From Buxus sempervirens (taxonomy: Eukaryota > Streptophyta > Magnoliopsida > Buxales > Buxaceae): a stretch of 64,000 nt of DNA. The position numbers and the translations under genes are program-made. This document shows, one piece after another, positions 1 to 23,125 of the stretch. Position 1 is the stretch's first letter, and each line of letters starts with the position of its first letter. The notes beneath the pieces were generated by a model. That model made no database searches. It was given only the letters and a program-made list of their open reading frames with translations, and was not told the DNA's origin. The stretch is from assembly GCA_947561395.2 (NCBI GenBank), contig OX387182.1:57187283-57251282 (forward strand), written 5' to 3'.

Positions 1-1
1 G

Positions 2-1700
2 GTTCGGGGCTTAGCATCTCCGAGGGGTGATGGAGTTAGCAGCCGGTTTTTCTGGCAGATTCTACAGGTATTGCATTCATCTGTCTGGTTTAAGTCCTTA
101 GGCTTTATCTTTTCTTAACTGATTTTTCTTTTGTTAGGTGTTCATGTACACCTATATGACCTTCTTCCGCCCCTCCCCGGTTCCTGAGGTTGCGGATTTC
201 CCTGTGGCCCTGCGATGGTCGGCCCAGGTTCGAGATGCTGATAGGAGCCAGCCTCGTACTGCCCGGGTGCACTTAGACCGTGCCCGCCGATCTGATGTAA
301 GTCCTCTATCTTTTTTCTTTTATTTCCTTTCCTGTATCTTGACTGTATCTGACCACTTTGCTTCTTTGCAGCTCATTCTATCCCGTCCAGATGACGTGGA
401 TGTCGGAGTTGCCCGTGAGATGGCAGTACAGGATGCTTTTGAGAGAGATCTCCGACGTCAGCCTTACCAGTGCTTCCTTGGGAGGCTTGGTAGGGTGATG
501 TACTTGGGAGAGCGCCTGTACTTCCAGCACACTGGCGCACTTCGCATCCCCGTCCCTCCTCCTGCTGTGGGTCCCGACACTCTCCTTCCTGGCTTCGATG
601 TGGATCAGTTCGATCATTTTCTGGATGCCGAGGGGCTCACAGTAGCCGGAGATTATGACGAGTGGTTCCAGGGAGTATCTATCGGATGCTTGATGGATCG
701 ACCTACTCGTGCCGGGGTGACAGAGATCGGTGGGATCCGTATCCGGATCCACGAGGACACGGTAAGCCTTGTACTCTTCCCATTTTTATCTTCTTTTCCT
801 TCCTTATGCATTTCTGACCACGCTTCCGTTCTTGTTGGCAGGTACACGAGCTGAACTCCATTCGGGACCGGTTCGAGAGCCAGCGGGCTGCGATCGATGA
901 TATGATCGTGGAGCATGATGCGGTCGTGGCCCAGCGAGATGCCCGGATCAAGGAGCTGGAGGCCTTAGTTGCTGAGCTCCAGGCTAGACAGGTATCTGGC
1001 CTTCTCATATTTTCATTTCTTCCATTTTTCTATTTCTGCTATTCTGATGTGCTTGTTTGCCTTGTGCAGGGCTCGGTCCCAGATCAGGGTGCCTTCTTTG
1101 AGCATGATTTCCTCATTCCTGACCCATCTCCTGTTCGGGCTACTGATCCTGTGGACGTCCCAGCTGCTGATCCTGGTGATGCTCCGCCTATTGATGCCCT
1201 AGTTGCTCCTGCAGATGCCTCGGCTGTTCCAGTGATGGTTCATGAGCCGGAGGAGGTCCCTGCTGCTGACCCAGTGGATCCGGATCCTCCAGTGCCTGCT
1301 TTAGATATCCCTGGTATGCTTCCTTTAATTTTTCCTCTTTGGTTTATTCTGATGCTTTCATTTCTGATTTTTTTTTTTTCCTGTTGATCCAAATGTTTCT
1401 GCTCCTGGCCATCCTTCTGCTGCCGGGTCTTCTGGAGCTACGGGAGCAGAGCCTGCTATGGCTGAGGGTCCAGTTGGGCCGGTTGCTGTTGAGCCAGAGG
1501 CCTCCTCCCCAGATTCCACTCCTGCTCTACCCCCAGACATCGAGGAGTATTGCCTGGAGTATCAGCTCCAGCAGGTGGTGGGTCGGCATCCTCACCATGC
1601 AGCTGAGCGTATTCTTGCCTATTCTAGGCGTAGAGAGCTTCGGGGGAGAGGCCGTAGAGGTGGACGTGGCCGAGGACGTGTGGATGATCCTGCACATTAG
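2..1700 (+). pseudogene. Antisense gene A of the Tat element: multi-exon, PMD-associated protein, 5' end outside window
   Basis: Exons keep one frame across introns with GT-AG ends: <2-67, 138-296, 372-761, 842-991, 1070-1313, then about 1384-1700. Translation gives VFMYTYMTFFRPSPVPEVAD, a region with PPAVGPDTLLPGFDVDQFDH, a coiled coil (AVVAQRDARIKELEALVAEL), a Pro/Asp/Ala-rich linker, and an Arg/Gly-rich end (RGRGRRGGRGRGR). The overall plan resembles the C-terminal halves of transposon-borne plant mobile domain proteins. The junction QILQ at the first visible intron matches an intron position in gene B. The last intron lacks an AG: a T-tract ends CCTG before VDPNVSAP, so the acceptor appears mutated and the copy is probably broken. 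Its function is unknown. Confidence 0.65.
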
Positions 1701-1913
1701 TAGTAGATTAGGATTTCTTCTTTTTATGTATTGATCTCACCATTCCTTGTACAAAAAACTTGCATATATATGAAAGAAAACTTTTTATTCATTCTATCTG
1801 GTCTTGCACATCTTTTGCTCTCAATTTTATGCCATTATGACTTGTACACAGGTAAAACAGGTAAAAAATTCGGATTTTTCATCCTTAGCTCATTTTTCTG
1901 CTGTTTTTCTTTG

Positions 1914-2052
1914 TATCCGGTCTGACATACCGGATACATTGATTGGCCTTTGTATCCGGTATGTTATACCGGATATTCATAGAATCCTCTGTATCCGGTA
2001 CACTTATCCGGATATTAATGAAGCTTTTGTATCCGGTCTGAGTTACCGGATA
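1914..2052. repeat. Dyad array 1 (upstream of antisense gene B)
   Basis: Four 23-bp dyads at 1914-1936, 1953-1975, 1992-2014 and 2030-2052, with steps of 39, 39 and 38 bp and the same half-sites as the LTR and leader arrays. The array ends 13 bp before a TATA box (2066-2072) that faces the plus-strand gene starting near 2090, which places it in a promoter. Confidence 0.9.
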
Positions 2053-2065
2053 GGTTAAAAGATGC

Positions 2066-2072
2066 TATAAAT
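2066..2072 (+). promoter_or_regulatory. TATA box of antisense gene B
   Basis: TATAAAT, 13 bp after the last dyad and about 20-30 bp before the reading frame opens. It supports an independent plus-strand promoter inside the retrotransposon. Confidence 0.6.
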
Positions 2073-2089
2073 GCAACCAGCCTCGGGAT

Positions 2090-3874
2090 TTGAGCATTTT
2101 TTACGAGTTTTTGAGTTTAGAAACCCCCTTTTTCGCCTTTTTCTTCCTCCTCTTGAGTTCTAGCTTGCTCCCGTCACATCCAATAGAATCCGGGTCATCT
2201 TCTGCCCCATTATTGTCTGTCCACACTGCCTCCCCTGCAAAACAGCCTTTTAGATCAAAACCCCCAAATCTCACTAGGTACAATCCTGTGGATGCCTTTT
2301 ACACAAGGTGGGTTAACTCTATGTCCCTAGATGAGGAGAGGAGATGGGGTTCTACTAATCTAGGCCATACCCTGCTCATTCCCAAGGTTCCCTTCAGGTG
2401 GGAGATTATAGAGGCCATGATTGGTCATTGGGTTCCTGACCTCAACTTGTTCCGTTTTGGGAACCATGAGATGACCCCAACCCTTGAGGAGGTGGAAACC
2501 ATCCTGGGCCTGAGGTTTGATGAGAAGGTGGTGAATTCACCTCTTAGGCCCAGTTACAAGAAGGAAGCTTCTACTTTTTTGGGCATAGGGAAGAAGGACT
2601 TGGGAGATTCTGACACCCTTTTGACCCTATCTAAGGCTTTTTTGACTGAGAAGCTTTTGAGGGGAGAAGATAAGGAGGCCCGATTCAATGCGTTGACCCT
2701 GATAGTGGTCAACCAGTTGCTTTTCCCACAGGAGGATGACGAGGTGGACTTGGCCTTGATTTCCGTGATATGCCAGGTTAGGGAGCGGGAGAGGTTGGCC
2801 CCTATGATTTTAGCTGGGATATATCAGGCCTTAACCGACTGCTACAATAGGAAGTCGAAACGCTTCTTAGCATGTGCCCAGATCCTGCAGGTAAAAAGGT
2901 TTTTTTTTTATTTCTTTTTTCCTTGCTTTTTTGGCTTTCTTTTTGCCTTTTTTTTTTTTTTTTTTACAATGTGCTGACATATCTCCCTTCCTTTGCAGCT
3001 TTGGCTACTTGATCATTTGAGTCAGATTGAAGAGATCAATCGACACTTCTTCCCGAGTCTGAAAGTCCCCTTGTTGATGAGCAACAGGGGGTGCCCTGAT
3101 ATTCCAGGGGGCAAACAGGGCTGGTTCACTTTCTTGGGCTCGCTTCAGGATGACCAGGTGAGATGGCCTGGTACTTATCAGCCTAATGCGGAGACAGTGA
3201 TTAGCTTCCGAGACCGCAACTTTCTGATTATGGCGGGCCTGAAGCATGCAGTGCTGTATCTTCCTCTGCGGGTCCTTCGTCAGTTCCGAGCGACCCAGGG
3301 GATTATCATCCCATGTGGATATGAGGATCGTCTTGGGCCCCTTTCTATGAAGCTGAATGCCTGGTTGATGAAGGAGTGGTCCTATGTCCGCTTTATGCAT
3401 GGTCCAGTCTTCTCAGAAGCCCATGTGAAGGATTATCTCTTCTGGATCAAGGAACAGATACAGACTCAGGCCCCGGTACCCGAAGATCCTCCTGTAGTCT
3501 TGGCTCCCACCTATGAGGACATTCTAGAGTCTGAGCGGGCTTCTCATAAGCGGCTTCAGTAGATATGGGTACGGGAGGCCCAGGAGCTCAGGATACAGGG
3601 CGCTTATCTGGAGAGGCAGCTTGAGGAGCAAATCTCACGCCGTGTTGCCGTGGAAGAGAAGCTGAAGGAGCAGAGGCAGGCTCGTTGCTTTGAGGTCCGT
3701 ATGATCCGGCAGAAGTACCAGGATACTTTGGCCAGCCTTAGGAGTATGCGGATTAAGCAAGCCCTTTCAGATGAGGTCATTTCCTTCCTGAGTGATCCCG
3801 CTGCAGAGGGGGCTTCAGGAGTCATTGCAGCTCAGGCAGCTTGGATTCGGGAGCTTGAGGAGCGGCTAAGATAG
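2090..3874 (+). pseudogene. Antisense gene B of the Tat element: plant-mobile-domain-type protein, spliced, one stop
   Basis: Exon 1 runs from about 2090 to 2890, an intron with GTAAAA...TTTGCAG ends lies at 2891-2998, and exon 2 runs from 2999 onward in phase 0. Exon 1 contains RYNPVDAFYTRWVNS, TLLIPKVPFRWEIIEAMIGH and MTPTLEEVETILGLRFD, the signature of the plant mobile domain (aminotransferase-like/MAIN-like family) that recurs in plant transposons. The end is a coiled coil (LEEQISRRVAVEEKLKEQRQ). A TAG at 3560-3562 interrupts the frame, which continues to 3874; CAG-to-TAG is the simplest cause. No in-frame ATG is obvious before residue 77, so the start is uncertain. A TATA box and a dyad array lie directly upstream. 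Its function is unknown. Confidence 0.8.
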
Positions 3875-4821
3875 AGATTAGCTTTATTTCCTGCACATTT
3901 TTCATACCTTTGTACAAAATTGAACTCCAATAGTGGAAATACAAAGGATTTAATTCAAAATAAAGTTTTTATATTATTGGCCTCAAAACGCTCAGATGCT
4001 TGTAAAAACAAAGGTTTTATGAAAAGTATTTGATTTATCATCACTGGCCAAAGTATAATTTTTCCTTTTTTATATTTTTTTGTTTTTTGAAATTTGGTCC
4101 ATGCACTTAATCACCTATAATTAAAGGAATTAGAACCAGGTTAAATAATGAAAAGGGTAGTCCAGAAAATACTGAGGGATCAGAACCGTCCATCTTAGGA
4201 CCTTTAGAGTCATCCCCAACTGCCAAAACTGCCCCATATATCTCATGCCGATTTTGCTTGAAGCTCAGATCCCCATGATCAACTCAACCTCTGATTTTCT
4301 TTCATTTTTCTTATTTTTTTTCTTTTTGCCTTTTTGCCAATATTGCCCCTAGCGCCAGTTACGGTTTTCACTAGGGCCGGCTTCTGAATTCCGTCATCAC
4401 CCATCTTACTCTGATATTTGAATGAACAAACTAAGATCACCGAGGGCTTAAAAATAGGACGAAATAAAGGCTAGGCTCAATTTATGAAAGAAAGGGTATT
4501 AAAGGCCCAAAATTTTTCAAGTGTGGAGATAGGTCAACCGGACTTACAGTCATGATGAATTCAACCCTTTTTCCCCGAATTGCATTTTTTTGCATCTCTT
4601 TTTCACACTTGGCTTTCATTTGCCATTTTTCATTGCTTTTCCTCTCTTTTTCTTTTTCTTTCCTCACTTTTGCCCCAATTGATTTTGCCCCAATTTAAGA
4701 CCGTAAATCCGGTTTGGGTTTATCAAAGAAACGAACCGGCTCAACTTGGCTAGACTAGGGATTAAAATTTTTGAAGGAAATAAAGAAAAATGGCCTCGGA
4801 TCCTTTCCTAGAAATATTCAC
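3875..4821. other. Spacer between convergent pol and antisense gene B
   Basis: AT-rich with several T- and A-runs and no coding region I can support. Pol on the minus strand and gene B on the plus strand both end into this stretch, so it should hold both 3' processing regions. Genomic RNA of the element must read through it. Confidence 0.6.
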
Positions 4822-7475
4822 TCAAGGGAAATACCTTTTTACCGCATCAGAGTTAATGGGCTCAGGAAAATCTGCCCCATCCATTTCTGCTAAGATGAGT
4901 GCTCCCCCTGATAGGACTTTCTTGACGACATATGGGCCTTCCCAATTGGGCTTGAACTTACCACGAGGGTCTTCCAAAAATGGTAAGATTTTCTTTAGCA
5001 CCAGGTTTCCTTCTTGGAAATTTCTGGGCCTCACTTTCTTATTGTAAGCCCGGGCCATTCTCTTCTGGTACAACTGTCCATGGCAAAGTGCTTTCAACCG
5101 CTTTTCTTCTATCAGGTTAAGTTGATCATGTCTCGACTGGACCCATTCGGCTTCTTCTAGTTCTGCTTCCATGAGCACTCGGAGTGATGGGATCTCCACT
5201 TCCACGGGCAAGACTGCTTCTGGTATGCTGACCATTGAAGCCAAGGTGGCTAGAGCGTCTGCAAATTGATTCTTGGCCCTTGGCATATAGTTGAAGGAAA
5301 TTCGAGTGAAATTTGTGCTTATTTCTTCCAAATACTGGTGATAGGGGATCAATTTGTGATCCTTGGTTTTCCACTCACCAGTTGTTTGGAAGATGATAAG
5401 ACTCGAATCCCCATATACGTCAAGTTCCTCTACTCCATGATCCATGGCTACTTGCAATCCAATTATGAATGCCTCATATTCTGCTATGTTATTGGTGCAC
5501 TGGAATCTCAGCTTTACTGCAATTGGGATGTGTGAACCATCTGGTTTAACCAAGACTGCCCCTATTCCGTTCCCATTCATATTGGCGGCCCCATCAAAGA
5601 ACATCTGCCAAGAACTCTCACTGTCCTCCTCTTCAGTGTACAGAATTGCCTCATCTGGAAAGTTGGTCTTCAAGGGTTGATATTCTGGCAGAGGATGTGC
5701 AGCCAGGTGATCAGCTATGGCTTGACCCTTGATCGCCTTCTGGGTGATGTATGTGAGGTCAAACTCGGACAGTAGCAGTTGCCACTTTGCCGTCCTGCCA
5801 GTCAGTGCCGGTTTCTCAAATAAATATTTCAGCGGGTCCATCCGGGATATCAATAGTGTGGAGTGACTAAGGAAATAATGCCTTAGCCTCTGAGTGGCCC
5901 ACACTAGAGCACAGCAAGTCTTCTCCAATGATGAATACTTGGCTTCATATTCTATGAATTTTTTACTCAGATAGTAAATTGCCCTTTCCTTTCTACTAGT
6001 CTCATCATGCTGCCCCAAGACACATCCCATTGACGTTTCCAATACTGACAAGTACAGGATCAGTGGTCTTCCTGGAGTTGGTGGCACTAGCACAGGTGGG
6101 TTCAGCAAATACCTCTTTATTGTGTCAAATGCCTGCTGGCAATCCTCATTCCAGACCGTCGGGTTATCTTTCCTCAAAAGTTTGAAAATTGGTTCACAGA
6201 TAGCAGTGAGCTGTGCTATGAACCGGCTTATGTATTGAATCCTTCCAAGAAAGCCCCTGACCTCCTTCTCGGTTCTGGGTGCTGGCATTTCAATTATGGC
6301 CTTGGCTTTAGCCGGGTCAATTTCAATTCCTCTTCGGCTCACTATAAACCCAAGCAAATTTCCTGATGTAGCCCCAAAGACGCACTTAGCCGGGTTAAGC
6401 AGTAGACTGTACTTCCTAAGCCGATCAAACACTTTCTTCAGATTGATCAAGTGGTCCTCCTCTTTGCATGATTTGGCAATCATATCGTCCACGTAGACCT
6501 CCATCTCCTTGTGGATCATGTCATGAAATAGTGCTGTCATGGCCCGCTGGTATGTTGCCCCAGCATTCTTAAGCCCAAACGGCATGATTGTGTAGTGGAA
6601 TGTGCCCCAAGGTGTGATAAATGCTGTTTTCTCTTGATCCTCCTTAGCCATCTTGATCTGATTATATCCTGAGAAACCATCCATGAAGGAAAACAGGCTA
6701 TGTACCGCAGTATTATCGATCAGAATGTCGATGTGTGGAAGCGGAAAATCGTCCTTTGGGCTTGCCCTGTTCAAGTCTCTATAATCCACGCACATTCGGA
6801 CCTTCCCGTCCTTCTTTGGTACCGGCACTATGTTTGCGAGCCACTCCGGGTACGTAGAAACTGCTAAAAATCCAGCTTGGAACTGTTTGACCACTTCATC
6901 CTTGACCTTCAGAGTCCACTCAGGTTTCAATCTTCTCAGCTTCTGCTTAATCGGCTTAACCCCTGGCAAAATTGGCAACTTGTGCACCACCATGTCAGTG
7001 TCCAACCCCGGCATGTCCCGATATGACCAAGCGAACACATCTTTGTAGTCTGCCAAGAACTGTGACATTTCATTTTTCTGCACATCAGACAAGCATGACC
7101 CGATTTTTACAATTTTTGGGTCATCTTTGGTCCCAAGGTTTATGGATATGGTCTCCTCAATATTAGGTTGGACCCCCTTTTCATGACGTTCCAATTGGTA
7201 TTCAATTTCTTTTGGAACGTCTTCTTCTTCGACCTCGGTCTCTTCTTCGACCCCCATGAGATCAAAGTCGAGCTCAAGGTCGAAGTCATATTCAACCTGG
7301 TCCCATTCGGTCTGATTATATGGTTCATAAGTGGTTTGGACCTTTTTGAAAAATTTAAATTTTCTAGAAAAAATAGAAAAATCTTTTTGGGTTTTTTGTG
7401 GGCCTTCTAAACATAATTCCCCTGAAGACGAAGGCCCATTAGAACCTTCAGGGAAATGGCCTTCCACTATTGGAG
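4822..7475 (-). pseudogene. pol: Tat pol: RT, RNase H, second RNase H, integrase tail; integrase core deleted
   Basis: An open frame of about 880 residues. An acidic N-terminus is followed by reverse transcriptase (VDYRDLNRASPKDDFPLPHI, PFGLKNAGATYQRAM, active site VYVDDM near residue 325). A Ty3-type RNase H follows whose first catalytic Asp is replaced (LYLSVLETSMG). A second RNase H has its acidic residues intact (FFDGAANMN, NIAEYEA, YGDSSLI, QFADALA, about residues 620-745). The frame then jumps at about residue 750 (5222-5213) from ALATLASMVSIPE to AVLPVEVEIPSLRVLMEAE, which in relatives lies at the end of integrase. The H2C2 zinc domain and the DDE core are absent, yet the frame is kept. 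The terminal chromodomain-like tail (FKPNWEGPYVVKKVLSGGAL) is present. Confidence 0.9.
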
Positions 7476-7621
7476 TTTTTTTTTGGAAGCCGCGTCAGTT
7501 TGCCGAACTAACGCTGCTTCAAAGGTAAGGGGAGTTTCCTCCCAATTGCTTAATACAAAATTTTGGGGAGCAGGGGAAATAGGGAAAGCCTGCTCTTCAA
7601 ACCCAGAATCCGATGCCATCA

Positions 7622-8201
7622 TCACCGGGTGGGTACTGCCCTTTTCTGCTCCGGGCCCAATCCAGAAATGACCTTGTCTGGCACCTTTACTGCGGCCCAG
7701 TCAATAAATGGCAGTTCCATGTCTGCCCCTATCTTTTCGCCTTCAGTCATGGCGAAGAATGCACCAACCTCTTCAGAAAAGTCCACCTGCTGCTCAGGCT
7801 GTGGTCCAGGCCCATCTGCTGCTCCCAGTATTGGAGAAGGGTTATAAGGTTGTAGGGCCGAAACAAAAAGCTTTTGAAATGGGTTAATGTTTCGGTATGG
7901 AGGCTTGGACTGGTCCATGGGAGGAGAAATTTGGATTATATAGGAGGGTTTCGGAAAGTTCACCCTTAGATGCGGGAGTTTTCCTTTGCTTCTGCTCTCC
8001 CCTTCTTCGTGCTTCATTCTTCTCCAGCCTCTGGGCTTGAAGCCCAACCCTACCTTGGGGATCAGTTTCTTAGCCGTGATTGGCTCCACCATCCCCTGCA
8101 GATTGATCCCCAGGCCTTTCCCCGGGTGAAAGTGGTATTTCTCCATCACTTTCTTGACCATCTTTTCTGCAGTGGTCCCCTTTTCCTTTTTTTTTATCAC
8201 A
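7622..8201 (-). pseudogene. G-patch-like linker between protease and RT
   Basis: The reading frame contains VMEKYHFHPGKGLGINLQG, a glycine-rich G-patch-like motif that typically links protease and RT in Tat polyproteins. It ends at a TGA at 7624-7622. A different frame (MASDSGFEEQAFPISPAP, about 7612-7480) then leads to RT, and that in turn shifts at a run of nine T at 7476-7484. So two frame changes separate protease from RT. Ogre elements have an intron in this interval; I cannot exclude a decayed intron instead of two indels. Confidence 0.7.
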
Positions 8202-8207
8202 CCCCCC

Positions 8208-8825
8208 AGGTATGAAATTTACCGCCTCAAATTGAAATGAGTGGAATGCAATCTTGTCAACAGTCAAGTCCACATTTATTAAGGGTACATCAGGTGACAC
8301 GATGGGCGGCACCAAGTTTTCGGCTAGGACTGTTATCACCCTTTGCCCTCTTATATATTTCACCCTCTGGTGGAGCGTGGATGGTATTGCCCTAGCCGAA
8401 TGTATCCACGGCCTTCCTAGGAGCAGATTGAAGGCTGCGGGTATATCCATCACCTCAAATGTGATGTTAAAGATATTCGGCCCAATTATGACCGGCAGTT
8501 CAATCTCCCCTAGGGAGTGGGTCTTGGAGCTATCAAAAGCCCTCACTATCCACCCATTTCTTTTGATCCTTGACTGGTCCAGACCCAGCTTGGTAAAAGT
8601 GATTAACGGGCAAACGTTTAACGCTGACCCGTTGTCGATTAAAACCCGTGCAACCATGCAGCCCTTACAAAGCACAGTGATGTGCAAAGGGTCCACATGA
8701 TAACACCCACCTGGGCTGATCTCACCCTCTGAGAAACTTATCACATTATGTGACAAGATTTGACCAACCATTTTACCAAGCTGGTCCGGATCAATTGTCT
8801 GGGATACGTGTGCACTCTGTAGCAC
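8208..8825 (-). pseudogene. Tat aspartic protease
   Basis: This continues the gag frame after the TAA at 8829. The active site reads VLIDNGSALNV (DNGS in place of the usual DTGS/DSGS, as I recall for Tat proteases), and the domain closes with the conserved NLLLGRPWIHSARAIPSTLH. It would process the Gag-Pol precursor. At 8202-8207 a run of six C (plus strand) breaks the frame. With one base fewer, the frame would continue PGGVIKKKEKG into the G-patch linker, so the break is probably a single-base insertion in a homopolymer. Confidence 0.85.
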
Positions 8826-8828
8826 CCT

Positions 8829-11279
8829 TTACAATGCATCCCTGTGCTTTTCAGAATTCAGCAAAAGGCGCAGTATTGAAATCTGGGCCGGGACCTTGTT
8901 CAGCTGATCCACAAGATTAAATTCACTTTTCTTTATTATTTTTATGAGGTCTGCTGCCTCATTCTCTGCACCCTGGGGGGTGTCTTCTCCTACTTTATTT
9001 TTTCCCTTATGTTTTCTTTTTTCATTTTCTTTTTCTTCTTTCTCCACTTCTGTCTCTTTTTCTTTCTCTTCACCCCCTGCACATCTCCCCGACCTCGTCA
9101 TGAGGTTCACCTCCTCCTGGTTCTGGTTCCTGACCATTGGAACCGTAGCCGTGATTCCCTCGCTGTAGTTCCATGGTATAGCGGCCTCTGAATAGGCTAA
9201 TTTAGGGATGTCAACCACTAGTGGCTGGAGTTTGGACCGGGATGTATGGGCCGGTTTAGGGATAGTCTGGGCTGGCTGCACATTTACAACCAAGGGTTGA
9301 AGTTTGGAGTTTGTGGGGACAGAAGAAGTGATGGAAGCAGTGGTGGGGTCAAGGTTGATGACCAGTGGAGCCTTAGACGGCTTGGATGGTGAGCAAGTGG
9401 GTGGACTGCAATTGAAGACCAATGGGGGTCTTGCAGTATTCATCTGGGCCATGAGTGAAGAGACCCGGTTTAGAGAGGAACTTATGTCCTCAGCAGCAAG
9501 ATTATTATTTTTTTGGGAGACCATGTTGATCTCCTCTTCTTCCTCTTCTGGGAAAAATCGGACCTGGACTGTAGTCCCCACAGGTGCTATAAGCTGAGAT
9601 GGGTCAAAGGCCCTTCTCGTGGTGGATATGGCAGAGATGGAGTTGGATGGGCCTGCCCCATTGTGGTAAGGCAGAGGGTTCTGCCCAATATCATTTCCCG
9701 ACGGGACGGGTGCAGCAGTGTTAAAGACCAAGGCCTTCTGGTCCAACAGGTCCTGGACCGCATGCTTCAATACCCAGCAGTTATCAGTAGAATGCCCCGG
9801 TGCACCCATGTGGAAATCACAGGTGACCGATGTGTCAAAATTTCTCCCCTTCGGGGCATTTGGGTTAGGCTCCTTCAGAGTCAAGTATTCCCCTTTCAGC
9901 AGGGTTGGCAGTAGTTGGGACAGAGATATGGGTAGAGGGGTGAAAATCCGGTTCTTTCTTGCTGCGAACCAGGCATCCCGCTCCTCCTTAGAAAAAGTCC
10001 TCCTTGTGTTAGCTGGCACAGAGGGAGGGAAGTTGACATTCAGCGGGGTCTGGTACGACTGCTGGGCCTGCTGGGCCTGTTGGGGTGCCGAGATGTTGAC
10101 GTGAAGTGGCTTCTTGGCTGGAGGAGCCTAGACTAGGTTCACCTCCCCTTCCTTTCGGGCCCCTGTCTTTTTAAATCCAGCCCCTTTCTTCTGGGCCATG
10201 GAGGCAGAGGAATCAGACTGCCCAGTCAGAGTAGAGTAGTCTATCAGCCGTCCTGACCTGACCCCTTCCTCGATCCGGTCCGCTACCTGTACCAGGGCTG
10301 CAAAGTTGGTGGTGATCTGACCCACCAGATGGTTGTAAAAGGGCTGCCCCAGTGTGCCCATAAATGTGGAGATCATCTCCGGCTCTTGCATAGGTGGCCT
10401 GACCTGGGAGGCAGCCTCTCTCCATCTCTTGGCGTACTGCCGTACCGGTTCATCTTTCCCCTTGGTCATCCTCATCATGTCGTACCGGTCTGGCACAATC
10501 TCCGAGTTGAACTTGTACTGGTCCAAGAAAGCATCAGCCAAGTCCTTCCACCTCCTGATCCTTCCATGGTCCACTGTAGCGAACCACCGAAGGGCTGACC
10601 CGGTCAGACTCCTCTGGAAGAGCTGGATCAGTATGCCATCGTCCCGGCCAAATTGGCATAGGGCCCCGCAGTATAGCTTCAAATGGCTTAATGGGCAGCC
10701 CGTGCCATCAAATTTATCGAAGTCTGGGCACCAGAACTTAGTCGGTAGACAGACGTCCGGGTACATGCACAGGTCTTCGAAGGTGGTGCCTGCATGGCTG
10801 CCTCCCCCCTTCACTTCCTTCAGCTCTGCTTGGATCCTCTCTATCCTGAGCAGCATTTTCTTTTCCATCTCATCCCTAGCCTTTTCTTTTTCCAGTTCTT
10901 TCTCAGATTCCGCTATATTTTCCCTGATCAGAATGGGTTCAGGGACTGGTTCAGAAATGGGCTCAGGCATGGGCTGAACCGGAGGCGGAATGTAGGCCTG
11001 AGGTGGTGGTGCCTGATGAGAAGTCGACGCCTGATTTTGGGCTTGGGCCTGCTGGGCCTGAGCCGCCAGTAAGTCTCCTAGCATTTTGGCCAGACCGGCC
11101 ACTTGCTCCTGCAGCTGAGTAAAGTCCTGAGCGGGGACAGTAGCTTGGGCTTGGTTCTCTTCAGTATTCATGGCTCTTGCTTTGGATCTGGTCACAGGAG
11201 CAATGACTGCAAATAAGTGCTCCTGGGTCGAAGGTAAATGTACCTGAGGAAAAAATGAATAGAACATGTTAGCTTCCAT
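8829..11279 (-). pseudogene. gag: Tat gag polyprotein, one internal stop
   Basis: Structural protein of the retrotransposon. The first segment (10128-11279) begins with a Gln/Pro-rich stretch, then a charged coiled-coil-like stretch (ESEKELEKEKARDEMEKK). A retrotransposon gag domain follows (GSALRWFATVD, WKDLADAFLDQY, RQYAKRWREAASQVRPP). An in-frame TAG at 10130-10128 interrupts it; the same frame continues to 8829 and includes CDFHMGAPGHSTDNC, the His-substituted zinc-knuckle form seen in Tat Gags. The frame closes with TAA at 8831-8829, where relatives read through into protease. Both stops fit CAG-to-TAG and CAA-to-TAA changes. The annotated start (11279) may be an intron-exon artefact, because an acceptor lies at 11244; the ATG of AMNTEENQ is an alternative start. 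Confidence 0.88.
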
Positions 11280-11369
11280 TTAACTTGAGTCACACCCCTA
11301 TATATGTAAACCAGTAGGTTAGGTGAACACCAATCCAGATTTTTTTGTTTTTTTTTTTTTTGTGTTGGA

Positions 11370-12225
11370 ATATTCTAGGGCTTCCAAGGGTCCCAAAAAA
11401 ATTTTTTTTTTTTGATTTGATTGATAAAAATAACCAACTAAGGTTTTCATGGAATATTCTAGGGCTTCCAAGGGTCCCAAAATTTTTTTTTTTTGATTTG
11501 ATTGATAAAAATAACCAACCAAGGTTTTCATGGAATATTCTAGGGCTTCCAAGGGTCCCAAATTTTTTTTTTGATTTGATTGATAAAAATAACCAACCAA
11601 GGTTTTCATGGAATATTCTAGGGCTTCCAAGGGTCCCAATTTTTTTTTTTTTTTGATTTGATTGACAAAAATAACCAACCAAGGTTTTCATGGAATATTC
11701 TAGGGCTTCCAAGGGTCCCAATTTTTTTTTTTTGATTTGATTGATAAAAATAACCAACCAAGGTTTTCATGGAATATTCTAGGGCTTCCAAGGGTCCCAC
11801 AAATGTTTTGATTTGATTGATAAAAATAACCAACCAAAGGTGTCTTGGAATGTTCTAAGGCTTCCAAGTATCCCACAAATGTTTTGATTTAATTGATAAA
11901 AATAACCAACCAAAGGTGTCTTGAAATATTCTAGGGCTTCCAAGTATCCCACAAATGTTTTGATTTGGTTGATAAAAATAACCAACCAAAGGTGTCTTGG
12001 AATATTCTAGGGCTTCCAAGTATCCCACAAATGTTTTGATTTGATTGATAAAAATAACCAACCAAAGGTGTCTTGGAATATTCTAGGGCTTCCAAGTATC
12101 CCACAAATGTTTTGATTTGATTGATAAAAATAACCAACCAAAGGTGTCTTGGAATATTCTAGGGCTTCCAAGTATCCCACAAATGTTTTGATTTGGTTGA
12201 TAAAAATAACCAACCAAAGGTTTCT
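11370..12225. repeat. Leader minisatellite, about 76-84 bp units
   Basis: About 11-12 tandem units share the core TATTCTAGGGCTTCCAA. The left units (11371-11775) carry a variable T-tract of about 8-16 bases and repeat every 78-84 bp. The right units (11775-12225) lack the tract and repeat every 76 bp. Overlapping reading frames through the array are by-products of the repetition. Tandem repeats in Tat non-coding regions are known seeds of plant satellites. Confidence 0.92.
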
Positions 12226-12560
12226 TTTTTTTTAATTCTTTTATTTTTAATTTTTGCTGAATTTTCTCAGTTTTCAAGTTCAAAAGTTTGACTGACACAT
12301 GTTTGAGTTGAGTTGGTGTCAAAAAATATGACACCTTGGTTTCCTCTTTGATTTTCAAACTTAGGTAAAATCCTGAAAGAATATTTTATTTTATTCTTTT
12401 TTTGTTTTTCTTTTTTTTTTTTTGTATTTATTTTTTTTTTTTTGTATTTTTGGGAACAATTCTTATGTTCTTTTCGGGGTGCCTAAGGATTATCCACAGT
12501 GTTTTAGGCATTTTATTTTGAAAATTTGGGCTGAAAAGCCAATTTGTGCATTTTTGAATG

Positions 12561-12700
12561 TATCCGGTATAATATACCGGATAAGAATATGCCTTATTGT
12601 ATCCGGTCAACCTAACCGGATATCCGCATATGTCTTTGTATCCGGAAATATCTACCGGATATGATTAGAGCTGTTATTAACCGGCCTGAGTTGCCGGTTA
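12561..12700. repeat. Dyad array 2 (in the leader)
   Basis: Four 23-bp dyads at 12561-12583, 12600-12622, 12639-12661 and 12678-12700, spaced exactly 39 bp. Unit 1 extends to 11-bp arms. Unit 4 reads TAACCGGC and GCCGGTTA: two changes from the consensus half-site are mirrored in the other half, preserving the dyad. It lies between the primer site and the minisatellite. Confidence 0.9.
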
Positions 12701-13459
12701 TTGCCGAAATGGCCCTTTTTGACTCATTTTTTTCACCAGATTTGATTTTTTTTCATTCCCAATTGATGTTCACCTTAATTTGACCTTCAAACTTGCCCCA
12801 AATTGGGCTTGGACATTATATTTGCAAAATCCCCAAATTCATGAAAAGAACATGGTTTTACCTTGCCACCTTGTATTACCTTCATTTAATATGGTATTCA
12901 CATTATACCTTGGCCTGTAAAACATGCAAACGGCCTTCCCACATTTACACCCAATTTCCCCAAACGCAATTGTGTGCTTTTAGCCGAAAACGTGTTTCTC
13001 CACCTTCAAGCGTATGGTTTTTGGGTTTTGGCTTAATTGGCAACTTAGAACTCAAGTCTAGTGATGCCCGGAATCGAATCACAGATCCCATTGTCATCAC
13101 ATCATTGACTCAAATTCTAAGGTAAATGTTTTCACTTTCGCTTTCCGAAGTCACGACCTCGGTGCGCCAAGCTACACACATTCATGGTTCAACTTCCTAA
13201 TAGGTAAAGGGTAGGCTGTGCAAATTGTTTCAAGTGCTCAAGTGCAATTTTAAATTGTGGTAACATTCACAACGTCCCAGCCCCTTGCCACTCTTTTTCG
13301 TAGCCATGCATTCAATTTCAAGCCAAGGTACTAATGACAAAGATAATGAAGCTAAATACAAGCAAGCAAGCACCAAAGTAACCAAATATGCACAAAAATA
13401 TTACATGCCCAAAAAGTAGTATACAAAACATGTTATTTGTACAAACAACAACTAAACCA

Positions 13460-13960
13460 TGGAAGCATGCTTGACCCAAAAGCATTCCCTAAAATTCCAG
13501 ATTCTCATGCCTTTTTCATGCTCAAAGTGTACCATTTACCCCAAATTGAAGCCTAAAATTTTAGCACTTACTTGGCATGATACAAGAAAGGTTTTGATGA
13601 TTTAAACATGCTTGAAAACCCCCAAATATGCACTGAAATTTCCAGAATTTTCATGCTCAAAAGTGCATCCCTTATACCCCAAATTAATGCCTAAAAGTTT
13701 AGCTACTACTTGACATGCTATATTGGTGAACATGCTAAAAAAATCTACAATGTGCACTAAAATTCCAGATTTCATGCTCTTGGTTTTCATGCTCAAATCA
13801 AATCCCCCTATACCCCAAATCAAAGGCATAGCATAACAAAAAATTTTTAAGCACAAAAAAGCATGCTTTATGGGAATCATGTTTGAATACCCCAAAAATT
13901 CTGAACTCCTAGATTTCATGCTTCTAATTCTCATGTTCAAACCATGGTATTCAAAATCCA
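13460..13960. repeat. Degenerate tandem repeats of about 120-140 bp in the leader
   Basis: Three to four diverged units share the order: CATGCT, then AAATTCCAGATT, then CATGCTCAAA, then TACCCCAAAT, then GCCTAAAA-type strings. Clear occurrences of the TTCCAGA motif are near 13495, 13637 and 13763. It is older and more diverged than the minisatellite at 11370-12225. Confidence 0.55.
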
Positions 13961-14196
13961 AATTAGAGCATGTTATCACCAAATGTATCAAAATCATGCT
14001 TCAAGATAGGCTTCTCCTAAATCAATCTTTAGGCAACATCAATCAAAACATACATGACTTGATCCATATAAAATTCAAAAGCATCCCAACCTGATTTGAA
14101 ATACAAGAATATACACAAATAAAGTAAACAAAATAGCAAGTATTCAAAAAGTAAAGAAAAAGCATGAACATACAAAAAAAAGGCTTAAATCCACAA

Positions 14197-14215
14197 GTCC
14201 CCAGCAGAGTCGCCA
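14197..14215 (-). promoter_or_regulatory. Primer binding site of the Tat element
   Basis: On the minus strand TGGCGACTCTGCTGGGGAC begins two bases after the LTR end. It begins with TGG, complementary to a tRNA CCA end. The sequence fits the tRNA-Arg primer reported for Ogre/Tat elements; that tRNA assignment is from memory and was not aligned here. Confidence 0.8.
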
Positions 14216-16006
14216 GTTGTGAGACATGGGAAAAAATCACCGGAGTGATCATCCCTCAGTCAACACACGGGCTCAACGCAAAAGTTGGGAGAGTCGCCAC
14301 CATTCATGATTTTGGGGTGAGAATGGACACCAAAGAGTTCAAAAGTAGGCAAAAATAGCCAAAAGAAGCATTCTAGGATAAAAATAACCCTACTTGAAAA
14401 TCAAATCCAGAGATGGGTAAGGGGATTAGATTATGAACGGGGGAAGGTGTTAGGCACCCCCATTCATCCACACGAAGTGGTTGCCAAGTGTATGTTCATG
14501 CTAAAAAGAAAATAAGAAGCTTGCTAAAAATCATGAAAAAGCCTTGAAAAGGAACAAGTGTATGATATATTCACATGGAGATCCAAATGGATTTTAGATC
14601 TCCTCTTATGTCAATATCACTTCTGGAACATTAAAGAGGTGGAAATCAAAGCACAAGTTGATCAAAACCAAGTTAAATCAAATCCGGGAAGTTTGGTAAA
14701 AAAGTATGCCATTTGCCTTAAAATCATTCAAATCCAATTTTGAATTGAACCAAACCAAATCCATTTGAAATATTAGGGTAAATAAGAGTCTCATGCAAAA
14801 TTTCCCTTCATTCCGATGAAAAATCTAGGAGTTATGCTCCTTTGAAGTTGCTGTTGGGGATTTTTAAAACTAGTAAGTGGGCAACTTTGGAAAATTGTCT
14901 AGAAAAATACACTGCATAAAAGTCCATGAATTTGGTGTGATTGAAGTTTGTATGGCCATCTTTCAACAGAAACTAGCCTCATACAAAAATCCCTTCGGAT
15001 GTGCCTTGGGTGGTCTCCCGAACAGGCCCCGAAGATCACAGATTTACCCAGAAAAGTACAAATGAACAGTTCTGAGTAAATCGGCTACCAATAATTCAAA
15101 TGGAATCCAAAAATTATGAAATCAACTGGATTTGAAAATAGACTCATAAAGGAGTACTCAGAAATAAAAATCACTCGAATCGGACTTAAAACGAACTCAT
15201 GGCGGTCCGTCGAAGTGACAAGTTCTGTACTTGGACCTGAACTGTCCACTTAACTTCGACAGAGAGGTGTCAAAAATCCGCTAAATAGAAATTTGTGAAA
15301 TTTGGTGGACATAAACTAGACAGCCTCACCTTTCCCATGGTTTTGAAATCACCCCAAAATTCATCCGGATGATGAAGTTATGGGCGTCCGAAGTAAGGGT
15401 ACAGGTGCTGTCAAGCTAAGCCACTTTTGAAGAAATCCAAATCCGAAAATTGACAAAAAGTGTGTGATTCGTGTGAGATGAATCCAAAACCTTTGAAAAA
15501 CATTTAAAAACACTCCAGAATTTGATTGAGGCCATTTATTGGAGATTTATCGCAATGAATGTAATAAATCCCCAAATGTGAGCCTATTCACCAAAAAAGT
15601 GTAATATGTGTGCAAAAGTGAAAAACCAAGCAAGATCAATACAACATGCATATAGATTCAACAAAATAGGTTCTAGCATAGCCTAGGGTTCCGTTCCATT
15701 ATCGTTTCCCTCTGTTCTCTCTCCCCGTTAAACACGGATCTTCGAAATAATCAAGGGTACTTTGATTATAGAACGGTTTTCAATCATTCAAAAGCCTTAT
15801 GCTACATGGGTTCTAGCACTAGGGTCAATCCCCAGTCTCGTTTCTCCTAGATCCCCCTTCACGTTTTACGGCTAGGGGAGTCTTGAGATACTTTGAGCCG
15901 GGGAAGGATTTCCACACATACAAACAAGGCTTTACACTACAGAAAGGTAGAAGAAGAGATCTAGATCTAGGAATGTAAAGACAGAAAATAAAAAGAAAAG
16001 TTGAGG

Positions 16007-16014
16007 CTTACCTG
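16007..16014 (-). promoter_or_regulatory. Candidate 5' splice site in the LTR
   Basis: The minus strand reads CAG|GTAAG, a near-consensus plant donor about 100 nt after the TATA box. A matching polypyrimidine-rich acceptor, TTTTTTCCTCAG|G, lies at 11249-11244 near the start of gag. If used, the pair would remove about 4.8 kb of leader, including the minisatellite. This is inferred from the sites alone. Confidence 0.4.
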
Positions 16015-16116
16015 AGTTCTGGAGGCGATTCCACAGCGGTTTTCTTCTTCTCTTGGAGTTCTTCTTTGCGAGAATTCAAAACAAGAGTTGAGTGCTTTTG
16101 CTCAAGGAGGAGGCTC

Positions 16117-16126
16117 CTATTTATAG
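16117..16126 (-). promoter_or_regulatory. TATA box of the Tat LTR
   Basis: CTATAAATAG on the minus strand, about 390 bp inside the LTR from its outer end and about 157 bp downstream of the dyad array. Its position suits a start of genomic RNA near 16090. Confidence 0.65.
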
Positions 16127-16282
16127 GCAAAGGCTAAGGTCATTGGTAGACACAACTTAATGTCTAGAACCCCTCCAACCTTAACCCTAAGGTTATTTCC
16201 GCGATTTCCCCTCATTTAATGAGGGACATGATGGTAAAAGTGAAAAGCCCTCGGAAAACCCTAATTTTGAGCAAACTTAAGG

Positions 16283-16422
16283 TATCCGGTATATCAGACC
16301 GGATAAAAAAGGGCCTTAAGGTATCCGGTACATGGTACCGGATACACTAAGGCTCACATGTATCCGGTATGAGTATCCGGATACGGGAATGAGTCCTTGT
16401 ATCCGGATTGAGTATCCGGATA
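16283..16422. repeat. Dyad array 3 (in the LTR U3 region)
   Basis: Four 23-bp dyads at 16283-16305, 16322-16344, 16361-16383 and 16400-16422, each exactly 39 bp from the next. Half-sites are TATCCGGT and ACCGGATA around a 7-bp variable centre. Unit 4 has the outer base pair swapped on both sides (TATCCGGA and TCCGGATA), so its symmetry is kept. Unit 3 has a mismatch at that pair. The array lies upstream of the LTR TATA box in the minus sense. Confidence 0.9.
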
Positions 16423-16513
16423 CAGGTAAAAGTTTATTTTCTTCAAATTCTGTGCTGGCTTTTCAGGAGATAATGATTTTTGATGATTGTTTGTGCAATT
16501 TGGGGTGTCTACA

Positions 16514-18742
16514 GCGTAATAGACGGCCGTTCACCCTAGCTCGTGAGAGCCGGGGATAGTGAACTTGCATCCAACACGATTTAGATGCCACCCTATGTGC
16601 GAGTGAGCTGCAGCAGCTCGTTCCACCGTTGCCAATGGTGAGGTCGAGACTCGATGGTTTTGTATATATAAATATATAAAATCACTAACCCCTACTAACA
16701 TTTTGATTGGATTGTACTTACCAACTCATGCGTAAGTACTCTGCTTGGAAAGAGCGACTCTAGCTAGGTCTTTCCCTATAAGCCGTAAGGTGGCAAATTG
16801 TACGCTAGTGTTATATCACCCAAGATATTCTAATCCACAAGTCATACATTAACACATCTTTGTAATTGGTTGTGGTTTATTGCCACCATGGTTTGTATTG
16901 ATTTTGATTTTATCTTTTCATTATTTCATATGACTTTTGAATACTTCTGGAAATTACTGAACTTACAGATATTGCTTAAATAAGGAATAAACTACTACAT
17001 TGTATTATAAATCTGCATCAATTGTGTTTAGCATGCTTTTGCTACTTGCAGGAAAGAAATTCTCACACATTTTGCTTTATCAATTTTGTTTTCAAAAAAA
17101 TCTTGCAGGGCGAGTACGTGCCGAGATAAACAAAGATATTGATTCAGATTTTTATTGTTCAAAGGATTATTATTTTTTGGCTAGGACTGGATTTTTTTTT
17201 TGTAATTTCTCTGATTTTTTTTGGGACATGTAAATATTGTTTATAGAGAGAGAGACTGTGAAACTTAGTGGAACTGTATCTGTGGATTTTTATTTTTGGA
17301 TATATATATACAGATCTAGGTTTTGTCAACACATACACCCATGCTTAATTTGTTTTAGATTTTAGTGCACTCTGATGTTAACTAGTTAATAAGGTTTAGA
17401 AAATGCCACTGGAACCTTACCTGATGTCTAGGAGCCAACATATATCTTTAATGAATATGTCCGGTTCCAGGTGATCACAATTTGTTTCTTTTCTTCTAAT
17501 AATTAAAAGAAATTGATGTTTGGGTTGAAGGAGACAACAAGTGCAATGCAAATGGTAATTTTCTAGGATTAACAAAAAAAAAAAAAAAGAAATATTAAGG
17601 GAAAATTGGCTTTTAGTGGTGCTTTTTAAAAATAATTTTGATTTAGTCACCAAATTCATGGTAATACAAAATAGTGATAGTTTTTGAAAAAAATTGTGAA
17701 TCAGTATATTTTGCTGTTGAGGAAGACTTTTTCCAAAAAAGCTCTCACCTGTAAAAAAATTTTTTGTTATTTATCATTAAGGAGTTTAAGAAGTGTTTTG
17801 AGGTCATTTTTGGATGAAGACTTGTGTGAACAGTAATATGACAATTATTCTCAATTAGTTTCAAAAAGTTTCATCGATTTCCAATTACCAATAATTTGAT
17901 GACTGAATCAAGATTATTTTTTAAGAAGTAACAAGCAAATGACCAATAAAATTTTTAAAATTTTAACATATGAATATATAGAGAACATCGTGCAGGGCTT
18001 GCCCGAAGTTTCTAAGACATGATAAGCCCGCCCAAAATTCTGTTGGGCTTTCCATAAGCAATTTAAGCTTGGTCTTATAGTCAACAAATCTATGACCAAA
18101 CCCATTCAAGAATGGGTTTGTCACCTCGGGCTGGGTAGGTCGCTCGGCCATGAATACCCCTTCATGTGCCCGACCCATAAACACCCCTTCGTGTACCATG
18201 CACCTTTTCATTGTGATCAGAGTAATCATATTGAGAAAAAAAAATCATTTGAAGAGAGAAAAATGATTTCTTTTAAAATGAATGCACTAATTACGTTTGG
18301 GCGTTGCATAGGTGCATGAGATATTGGATGTAGACGATTTAGGTAAAATTAAACTTAATTGAAACCAAATTTATAAATATATTTTACCAAATGGAACTGA
18401 TCGGATGTATATATATACAATTTTGTGTATATATTTGTTAAGTTTATTTATAGTTAGTATATCATATGAGAGATGAAGAGATAAGTCTTGTACATTTTAA
18501 CATTACTAGGGAATGCACGCACTACGTGTGTAGCAACAAAATTAGAAACAAATAGTGGGTGCATGGGCAGTTAGTTACTGATACACGTGGCTTAAAAAGG
18601 GTGATGTTGGAGTTAATTTAAAAGAATATGGACGGTATCTTGTGTATAGAATGTTAGGCAAAAATTAGGAGTTGGCTTTATATAGCACCATAGATAAAGT
18701 ATAGAAATTAGAAAACTCTTTTAATGTTTGTTAAATGGACTA
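16514..18742. other. No supported gene
   Basis: The flank of the Tat LTR. It is AT-rich, with a few splice-like strings near 17050-17110. A GC-richer patch at 17985-18200 is full of GGGCTTGCCCG and GCCCGCCC strings, similar in flavour to the ends of the hAT-like elements at 54005 and 55742. I see no gene with convincing coding character. Confidence 0.5.
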
Positions 18743-22844: not shown

Positions 22845-23125
22845 CCAAATTGGACCTCAATTGTCCTAAAACTAAATTGGACTGGAATCGTCATAAAAAT
22901 AAATTGGACTGGAATCATTCTTAAACTTAAATTGGACTGAAATTGTCCTAAAACAAAATTAGACCGGAATCGTCCTAAAACTAAATTGGACTGAAATGGT
23001 CCTAAAACTAAACCAGACCGGAATCGTCCTAAAACTAAATTGGACTGGAATTGTCCTAAAACTACATTGGACCGAAATTGTCCTAAAACTAAATTGGACC
23101 GGAATTGTCCTAAAACTAAAATTTT
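22845..23125. repeat. Minisatellite, about 29-bp units
   Basis: Nine to ten diverged copies of CTAAATTGGACYGGAATYGTCCTAAAA-type units (alternating ACTGGAAT, ACTGAAAT and ACCGGAAT). Reading frames across it (for example VLGQFRSN repeats on the minus strand) only reflect the period. The surrounding 22500-23500 is rich in AACCAAA strings and holds no gene. Confidence 0.85.

Follow-up and report, generated by a model that had tools for sequence, protein, structure and literature searches.

Repeated or palindromic boxes in the U3 region, such as BI and BII of Tnt1 and other LTR enhancer repeats, act as enhancers. Tnt1-type boxes are regarded as host-factor sites and are confined to the LTR. The nearest known counterparts of the arrays described here are the Sirevirus CGG-CCG palindromes and the target motifs of VANC proteins. 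In Sireviruses (Ty1/copia), CGG-CCG palindromes form a repeated motif of the LTR (PMC2829016), for example CACCGGACNNNGTCCGGTG (PMC10760457). According to the accessible text of these papers, the boxes cluster in the LTR just upstream of a conserved TATA box, and additional boxes lie near an accessory gene, env. In Arabidopsis VANDAL transposons, VANC proteins target a short family-specific motif that differs in type between related families (PMC5735166, PMC10398659, accessible parts). There, binding and demethylation have been shown.

Plant LTR elements, Retand among them, carry antisense accessory genes that have been proposed to play a regulatory role (PMC11963269, PMC7264820), and the portions of these papers at hand do not describe an operator common to sense and antisense promoters. 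PMC11963269, as far as its accessible text goes, focuses on TRP28-domain proteins, unlike the element studied here, whose antisense genes encode plant mobile domain (PMD) proteins. Gypsy elements encode PMD-A proteins, and an anti-silencing use has been speculated for PMDs captured by MULEs; the available part of that source (PMC5418596) does not describe a target motif or binding site of PMD-A. A group of host genes depends on the PMD proteins MAIN and MAIL1 for its expression, and one promoter motif is common to 25 of its 26 members (PMC7156037, in part).

The window, that is, the whole stretch of DNA analysed, comprises 64,000 nt of Buxus sempervirens (GCA_947561395.2, contig OX387182.1, 57,187,283-57,251,282). 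The arrays belong to a minus-strand element of 21.8 kb, a Ty3/gypsy retrotransposon of the Tat type and of a very abundant family, which extends beyond the left edge of the window. Its features are as follows, plain coordinates being those of the window.

1..1700, plus strand: 3' part of antisense gene B, from open reading frames; the PMD exon (PMD match) lies upstream at L116:9243-9998
1914..2052, plus strand: array 1, four dyads (1914, 1953, 1992, 2030), at the promoter of antisense gene A
2066..2071, plus strand: TATA box of gene A, GCTATAAATGC, 14 bp past the last base of array 1
2237..3874, plus strand: antisense gene A (PMD / DUF7745; Pfam PF24924, PF10536 and the open reading frames)
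4822..7494, minus strand: pol open reading frame with RT, RNase H and a second RNase H (Pfam and the open reading frames)
10131..11279, minus strand: gag open reading frame (Pfam PF03732)
12561..12700, no strand assigned: array 2, four dyads, within the 5' leader that separates the primer-binding site from gag; compared in five copies
14199..14215, minus strand: primer-binding site TGGCGACTCTGCTGGGG, adjoining the LTR
14218..16513, minus strand: 5' LTR; partner LTR at L116:4714-7012, target-site duplication GCGTA
16120..16125, minus strand: TATA box of the LTR, CCTATAAATAG
16283..16422, minus strand: array 3, four dyads, in the LTR U3; the LTR start is about 91 bp away and the TATA box 158 bp
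L116:7612-7673, just outside the window: two-dyad array at the gene B promoter

The initial annotation placed all arrays in one retrotransposon, and this holds: the two LTRs are 98.96% identical and GCGTA flanks both outer ends. The primer-binding site is, we presume, of the Tat type. RVT_1, RT_RNaseH and RVT_3 follow one another within a single open reading frame, and the two opposite-strand PMD genes occupy the place of the Tat antisense accessory genes, between pol and the 3' LTR. The pol frame of the window copy has no Pfam match to the integrase core, which Tat elements carry after RNase H; copy L128/L129 has about 0.8 kb of extra DNA at this point. The missing integrase lowers our confidence in the Tat assignment of the window copy, not of the family. 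An intron separates the two exon pieces of gene A, 2237-2890 and about 2998-3874, and in the window copy a stop codon interrupts the frame at 3560-3562.

All 12 dyads that the initial annotation had recognised are where it put them, four per array and each 23 bp long; eight of the nine steps measure 39 bp and the other 38 bp. Its half-sites TATCCGGT and ACCGGATA are less uniform than claimed: seven dyads are perfect, three have one mismatch, one has two and one has four. The last is the final dyad of array 2 (12678-12700, TAACCGGC...GCCGGTTA), whose mismatches are symmetrically placed. Over the 12 dyads the near-invariant core is TATCCGG-N9-CCGGATA with a variable position 8, and a G precedes 11 of them. 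With up to three mismatches, the window yields 11 dyad matches against a mean of 0.07 in 100 dinucleotide shuffles, none of which reached 11. The count of three arrays was too low: the element has five, since the 3' LTR array and the two-dyad array of gene B lie just outside the window. They occupy the U3 of each LTR, the TATA promoter of each antisense PMD gene and the 5' leader. A literature search did not contradict the statement that no such Tat feature had been described, but similar palindromic boxes are described for Sirevirus LTRs (PMC2829016, accessible part). Taken as a whole, the earlier interpretation is partly supported.

As in Sireviruses, the Buxus boxes are symmetric, have a CCGG core, lie upstream of a TATA box and recur near accessory genes. 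Unlike Sireviruses, the host is not Ty1/copia, the Pfam domains being those of a Tat-type Ty3/gypsy element; the centre of the dyad measures 7 bp instead of 3; the arrays keep a fixed 39-bp pitch with usually four units; they also stand at two antisense gene promoters and in the leader; and discrete half-site classes are largely shared within an element. With the VANC targets (accessible text of the sources above) the dyads share a tandem, family-specific short motif in non-coding DNA that serves several genes within a single element, and motif types that differ between related families. The VANC21 motif (YAGTATTAY), in contrast, has a single orientation, belongs to a DNA transposon and forms tandem repeats that expand and contract. 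Such rapid change is not seen here: of 133 arrays, 97 consist of exactly four units, 26 of two and 10 of three. The Tnt1 boxes resemble the dyads as repeated or palindromic U3 boxes and differ in being confined to the LTR.

The arrays are real and constrained. In 29 gene A copies, variation affects 8 of 1610 half-site cells (0.5%), 29 of 805 centre cells (3.6%) and 128 of 1344 spacer cells (9.5%), while the upstream 200 bp vary in 360 of 5678. These copies were picked by the gene A protein alone, and 29 of 30 were used, L159 being left out because a deletion had removed its array and TATA box. Four-mismatch "dyads" that overlap real ones in two gene A copies, L154 and L164, are uncounted, which leaves four and three units there. 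A second LTR subfamily, for which 19 copies were selected with a stretch of LTR lacking the array and joined by the reference L125 (the non-aligning L180 excluded), varies in 20 of 1099 half-site, 80 of 546 centre and 142 of 944 spacer cells. The rates are 47/1140, 88/561 and 168/992 with L180 included, and 11/1043, 70/518 and 124/896 without L180 and L171. Next to the LTR array, the 90 bp towards the TATA box (51/1775) are nearly as conserved as the half-sites there. Thus, in copies chosen blind to the arrays, half-sites do not diverge as fast as centres and spacers, nor are the arrays missing from most members (present in 29/30 gene A and 19/20 LTR copies), the two outcomes that the initial annotation had named as speaking against it.

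The pitch is equally regular. Among 337 steps in the fetched arrays, 300 measure 39 bp, 33 measure 38, three measure 40 and one measures 37. A gap survey that permitted 2-32 bases between adjacent half-sites gave, for 87 plus-strand rows among the matches listed, gaps of 16 (61), 15 (3) and 29 (23) bases. The 29-base gaps reflect the same pitch with one end displaced by 13 bp, and all 87 pairs fit a 38- or 39-bp step. An ordinary Tat-type tandem repeat, conserved merely through the youth of its copies, would be familiar: according to the accessible text of PMC11963269, about half of the recently active Retand elements have arrays between pol and the 3' LTR. This element carries a 76-bp repeat too, and the near-identity of its LTRs marks the window copy as young. 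In the gene A copies, however, the spacers vary 19 times as much as the half-sites of the repeat they belong to. This, together with the prevailing four units and 39-bp steps, makes the explanation extremely improbable, and in our view the half-site and spacer rates in the gene A and LTR copies already refute a neutral young repeat.

The arrays also keep their place relative to promoters. The gene A TATA box starts 14 bp past the last dyad in 15 of 19 elements, 13 bp in one and 7 bp in one, and is absent within 40 bp in two; among 30 gene A copies, 29 have TATAAA. For gene B, the distance is 9 or 11 bp in 15 of 19 elements, with no TATA box within 40 bp in four. In all nine LTRs examined (seven elements) the TATA box lies 157-169 bp from the array. 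Set distances on both strands weigh against the proposal that the dyads act as hairpins in the genomic RNA, in packaging, dimerisation or as a source of small RNA, as suggested for maize Sirevirus palindromes. The leader array fits that proposal better, as it lies in the RNA leader and has no TATA box within about 300 bp on either side. The window arrays also fold far better than shuffles (z of -9.98, -7.58 and -9.77), as would be expected of any DNA dyad, and window positions 1-17000 contain no Rfam family at gathering score.

The dyads fall into half-site classes. Genome-wide, TATCCGGT-N7-ACCGGATA with up to two mismatches occurs at 34,569 places against 147 in the reversed control. The exact TATCCGGC class has 7,571 places against 0, and the TATCCGAC class, the half-site of a sister group, has 13,482 dyads with up to one mismatch against 9. 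Exact mixed dyads, TATCCGGC with GTCGGATA, number 2,217 (1,129 + 1,088) against 0 in the control, which also argues against a hairpin. The base at position 7 goes with the array (353 of 386 matched; 353.6 in within-array and 218.3 in global shuffles) and lacks any pairing inside the dyad beyond the array class, again unlike a hairpin. At position 8, symmetry inside the dyad is in excess (266 against 242.9). Positions 3 and 8 change symmetrically more often than in within-array shuffles (reached in 1/500 and 0/500), which a hairpin would explain and relatedness can also cause; because shared dyad sequences are inherited, we do not accept this covariation as proof of a hairpin. The initial annotation left dimer site and hairpin side by side. 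The dyad constraint it relied on stands and the two are partly separable: a DNA site is the better match for TATA boxes at fixed distances and for half-site classes that hold across an array, and an operator read by one shared protein is favoured over an RNA hairpin, which we consider improbable. Centre positions 9 and 11 pair less than shuffles; as shared centres such as CTGAGTT are inherited, we leave this asymmetry uninterpreted.

In L190 the LTR, gene B and gene A arrays all belong to the TATCCGAC class. Across elements, the share of switched half-sites correlates between LTR and gene B (r=0.957, n=19), LTR and gene A (0.806, n=16) and gene B and gene A (0.789, n=17). A tree of non-array DNA, in which 3 of 17 inner branches have good support, requires one change of class for LTR and gene B and two for gene A, so the correlations do not represent independent events. 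This essentially single switch makes co-switching of the array classes suggestive only. Switched elements often have mixed gene A arrays, e.g. 3/8 half-sites in C4b, and C11_9 is discordant (LTR 8/8, gene B 4/4, gene A 0/3 switched).

We propose that each 23-bp dyad would be bound symmetrically, in all likelihood by a protein dimer, and that rows at 39-bp pitch would set several protein copies beside a promoter. What the data show is the constraint, the fixed pitch, the TATA distances and a half-site class that the arrays within an element largely share; that a protein binds, and does so as a dimer, we infer. That the arrays, taken alone, are operators at the DNA level is very probable. The same putative operator would stand at the sense promoter in the LTR U3 and at both antisense PMD gene promoters, and therefore one factor could regulate the whole element coordinately and, if self-encoded, its own gene too. 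Operators with a shared, perhaps self-encoded, reader are the best explanation of the whole, at slightly better than even odds in our judgement. The promoter motif of the MAIN- and MAIL1-dependent genes also speaks for it; the leader array without a TATA box, the symmetry at position 8 and the conserved 90 bp beside the LTR array speak against it.

A host transcription factor would be the main rival reader: the element would have captured multiple sites of a plant protein, with half-site classes following host paralogues. The TATCC/GGATA core presumably resembles sites of plant MYB-related factors, and the class II half-site contains CCGAC, which we take to be the DRE core. Two further elements, R127 (pol 63-68% identical) and R120, have arrays, and tblastn gave zero matches to genes A and B in the 13 kb examined. 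Cis-acting LTR boxes are frequently host-factor sites (PMC2829016, accessible text). Against this, the half-site class is largely common to three non-homologous arrays per element, and both classes thrive in one genome, so that joint movement of the arrays would have no obvious reason. We regard a host factor as rather unlikely.

The reader we favour is a PMD protein encoded by the element and acting in the manner of VANC, though the chances appear evenly balanced that the predicted binder is one of the two PMD proteins of the element. By likeness to VANC, it might, at somewhat under even odds, activate or de-repress copies with its own motif class. It is conceivable, at somewhat under even odds, that an antisense PMD protein reads the operator at the LTR and both antisense promoters and that protein and operators co-evolve into specificity classes; each family would then regulate (activate or de-silence) its own copies. 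The PMD proteins have no recognised DNA-binding domain, Pfam giving PMD/DUF7745 only. A PDB sequence search with the gene B exon returned nothing up to E = 1, and a protein database search with the gene A exon gave 239 candidates, none significant. The structure model of the gene A exon has a pLDDT of 41, making it unusable, and hence no fold search was run.

If the proposal is true, a retrotransposon can coordinate sense and antisense transcription via one operator. Retrotransposons would then have their own equivalent of VANC, and sequence-specific self-regulation or anti-silencing would have evolved from a further source besides VANC. The arrays would be, in the accessible parts of the literature searched, the first DNA target for transposon PMD proteins. 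A candidate target with natural specificity classes, in thousands of copies each, makes the roles of both the antisense genes and the domain directly testable.

A scan of IMG/VR for the dyad pattern found, among 80 of 107 stretches, one with more than one dyad (L050), a phage-like contig that we rejected as unrelated. In the L171 LTR, all four dyads are class II among class I relatives, which suggests that a module was swapped in and that no new switch took place. Methylation decay was rejected as the origin of class II, since position 7 is changed in most class II half-sites and the CpG is mostly intact. The three window arrays retain 8, 9 and 9 CpG against 6.1, 6.0 and 7.4 expected; over window positions 1-16513, CpG observed/expected is 0.46.

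The three arrays of 23-bp dyads lie exactly where the initial annotation placed them: array 1 at window 1914-2052, array 2 at 12561-12700 and array 3 at 16283-16422. Their host is a minus-strand Tat-type Ty3/gypsy element that also carries two antisense genes:

14218-16513, minus-strand element: 5' LTR
10131-11279, minus strand: gag ORF
7625-8218, minus strand: G-patch ORF, between the ORF at 8832-10127 and RT
4822-7494, minus strand: pol ORF with RT, RNase H and a second RNase H
2237-3874, strand opposite to the retroelement: gene A, plant mobile domain (PMD)
8923 of L116 (the DNA left of the window) to about window 1700, strand opposite to the retroelement: gene B, PMD

The order of RT, RNase H and second RNase H in pol is shared with Tat elements, and the G-patch domain is known from betaretroviral proteases. 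The 3' LTR lies in L116 and is 98.96% identical to the 5' LTR. Together with GCGTA at both flanks, the LTR pair therefore defines an element of 21.8 kb (C1:57181996-57203795). A Pfam scan gave no integrase match in the pol ORF of the window copy, and another copy (L128/L129) carries ~0.8 kb of extra DNA there; some members of the amplified family may therefore be non-autonomous. Gene A of the window copy has an in-frame stop in its second exon (3560-3562), after which the reading frame continues uninterrupted to 3871. A further gene A copy (G000:C12:28158947-28159600) has a 622-residue open frame that exceeds the exon and is perhaps intronless or contains an open intron. Between array 2 and gag, the leader holds a 76-bp tandem repeat (~10.5 copies, 11366-12226), which related copies have too.

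Each dyad consists of two 8-bp half-sites around a 7-bp centre, with 16-bp spacers between neighbours. Seven of the 12 dyads in the window are perfect; in the others position 8 accounts for most deviations, and array 2 closes with a dyad altered symmetrically at positions 3 and 8. Across the 12 dyads, the two halves carry 1.64 and 1.62 bits of information per base, compared with 0.43 for the centre and 0.33 and 0.25 for the left and right spacers. At up to three mismatches, the window contains 11 dyad matches vs 0.07 expected.

The motif is abundant throughout the genome (676.5 Mb, 247 contigs). TATCCGGT-N7-ACCGGATA occurs at 34,569 places with up to two mismatches, against 147 for the reversed control; array counts from the genome-wide motif scan are biased, because the arrays are located via the motif itself. 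CCGGATA and TATCCGG separated by 2-32 bases occur at 20,416 places (control 92). Among the 87 plus-strand rows listed (first places, contig C1), the separation is 16 bases in 61, 15 in 3 and 29 in 23, the last being 16 + 13, since a dyad with TATCCGGATA gives a second, inner match. The fetched DNA contained 133 arrays (112 distinct), with four units in 97, three in 10 and two in 26; of their 337 steps, 300 measure 39 bp, 33 measure 38 bp, three 40 bp and one 37 bp.

For the constraint tests, copies were picked without use of the motif, and variation was counted as cells departing from the commonest base. Gene A was sampled at 30 loci by protein similarity alone (the best 30 of 150 scored, from 6,003 first-look candidates). 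Array and TATA box are kept in 29/30, with four dyads in 28 and three in L164; in L159 a deletion covers both. Variant cells number 8/1610 in half-sites, 29/805 in centres and 128/1344 in spacers, which bears out across family copies the claim that half-sites hold while centres and spacers vary (half-site vs spacer p = 2.6e-35, relatedness ignored). Each half-site variant is confined to a single copy. Position 8 varies in 1/230 cells, the upstream 200 bp in 360/5678 and the downstream flank to 2236 in 105/5336.

The LTR sample comprised 20 copies from a second subfamily, selected with a query piece that contains no array; they represent 20 of the 40 matching places. Dyads are retained in 19/20 (four in 17, three in two); L180 has none, and its piece did not align to the reference. 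With L180 left out and the reference L125 included (20 rows), variant cells were 20/1099 in half-sites, 80/546 in centres, 142/944 in spacers and 43/156 at position 8. The flanks gave 51/1775 over 90 bp on the TATA side and 1243/3842 on the far side; since the TATA-side flank is conserved almost like the half-sites, the half-site contrast holds against the interleaved centres and spacers. In L171, the LTR array was apparently swapped to another class by recombination, while the adjoining array-free query piece matches at 96%. This shows that a whole LTR array can be exchanged as a block.

The arrays stand at set distances from promoters. Array 1 ends 14 bp before the gene A TATA box, and this distance recurs in 15/19 elements. 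Gene B has a two-dyad array (L116:7612, 7651) ending 11 bp before its TATA box; across elements the distance is 9 bp in 11/19 and 11 bp in 4/19, with none within 40 bp in 4/19. For array 3, in U3 of the LTR, the distance to the LTR TATA box is 158 bp; the 9 LTRs examined range over 157-169 bp. Around array 2, in the leader, about 300 bp were scanned on each side and contain no TATA. The three arrays of the window all face the same way (on the plus strand, their last dyad has the centre CTGAGTT or TTGAGTA), so that the one in the LTR is directed away from its own TATA box.

The set TATA distances favour a role of the arrays as DNA over one as an RNA hairpin. The arrays also fold well as RNA, but good folding is expected of any dyad. 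Position 7 matches between halves number 353, against 353.6 after shuffling right halves within arrays and 218.3 after shuffling over all arrays. Only the latter lowers matching, so class belongs to the array as a whole and does not reflect pairing inside the dyad. At positions 3 and 8, matches are more frequent than after the within-array shuffle (375 vs 367.8; 266 vs 242.9), and exact mixed dyads number 2,217 (1,129 + 1,088) vs 0 in the control.

Similar arrays occur in other elements. Dyads mostly at 39-bp steps are present in R120 and in R127 (63-68% pol identity to the window element), amid DNA of which little matches that element. In each, one of the arrays ends 14 or 13 bp from CTATAAATAG, at a promoter that may belong to an internal gene or a nested LTR, and tblastn found no match to genes A or B in the 13 kb examined of each. 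Other half-site classes are also common in the genome: TATCCGGC with 7,571 exact dyads (control 0) and TATCCGAC with 13,482 within one mismatch (control 9). In element L190, the LTR array and those of genes B and A all belong to the TATCCGAC class; the aligned protein pieces of this element are 57-86% (gene A) and 71-83% (gene B) identical to those of the window.

We hand-picked 20 further elements among 150 listed gene B matches (80-87% identity). Arrays were located at the LTR in 16/20, gene B in 16/20 and gene A in 17/20, with at least one in 20/20; the fetched pieces were short, so missing arrays do not prove absence. After addition of four elements analysed earlier, the proportion of class II half-sites (the switched class of the sister group) correlates between LTR and gene B (r = 0.957, n = 19, permutation p 0.0001), LTR and gene A (r = 0.806, n = 16, p 0.0002) and gene B and gene A (r = 0.789, n = 17, p 0.0010). 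These p-values overstate the case, because the class changes once each at LTR and gene B and twice at gene A on a tree built from 20 non-array segments, whose resolution is weak. The class change is thus one broad switch across three non-homologous arrays, not many independent switches. Counting against co-switching, gene A arrays are often mixed, and among single elements C11_9 disagrees across arrays and C3_45 is intermediate. Gene A arrays trail those of LTR and gene B in L190 and L191-L230, as if in mid-transition.

From sequence, we conclude that the arrays are putative operators for a symmetric DNA-binding protein, with joint control of sense and antisense promoters. A protein binding the dyads would act on both together. 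The binder may be the element's own protein: half-site class is coherent within elements, and the operator would govern two element genes (A and B) of unassigned function. Parallels come from VANC, the anti-silencing protein of Arabidopsis VANDAL transposons, a precedent for a self-encoded motif reader (PMC5735166, PMC10398659), and from the host PMD proteins MAIN and MAIL1. The latter are needed for genes with a common promoter motif, although the authors leave direct recognition open (PMC7156037, PMC9899485). Against an element-encoded binder stand the essentially single class switch and the PMD proteins themselves, in which Pfam recognised no DNA-binding domain. Among the open-licence PMC papers listed in the literature searches, none describes such arrays in Tat elements in its title or abstract; the nearest sequence feature is the repeated CGG-CCG motif of Sireviruses, upstream of the TATA and near env (PMC2829016).

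A cluster of palindromic TTATCCGG sites on a phage-like IMG/VR contig (L050:3486-3790) is intergenic and precedes a small ORF that we take to be nuclease-like; it was rejected as a relative of the plant arrays. Elsewhere in the window, outside the element, a 27-bp unit, AAATTGGACCGGAATTGTCCTAAAACT, is tandemly repeated ten times (22847-23120), and there is a 209-bp direct repeat (59620-59828 and 61648-61856; 98.6% identity, 2,028 bp apart).
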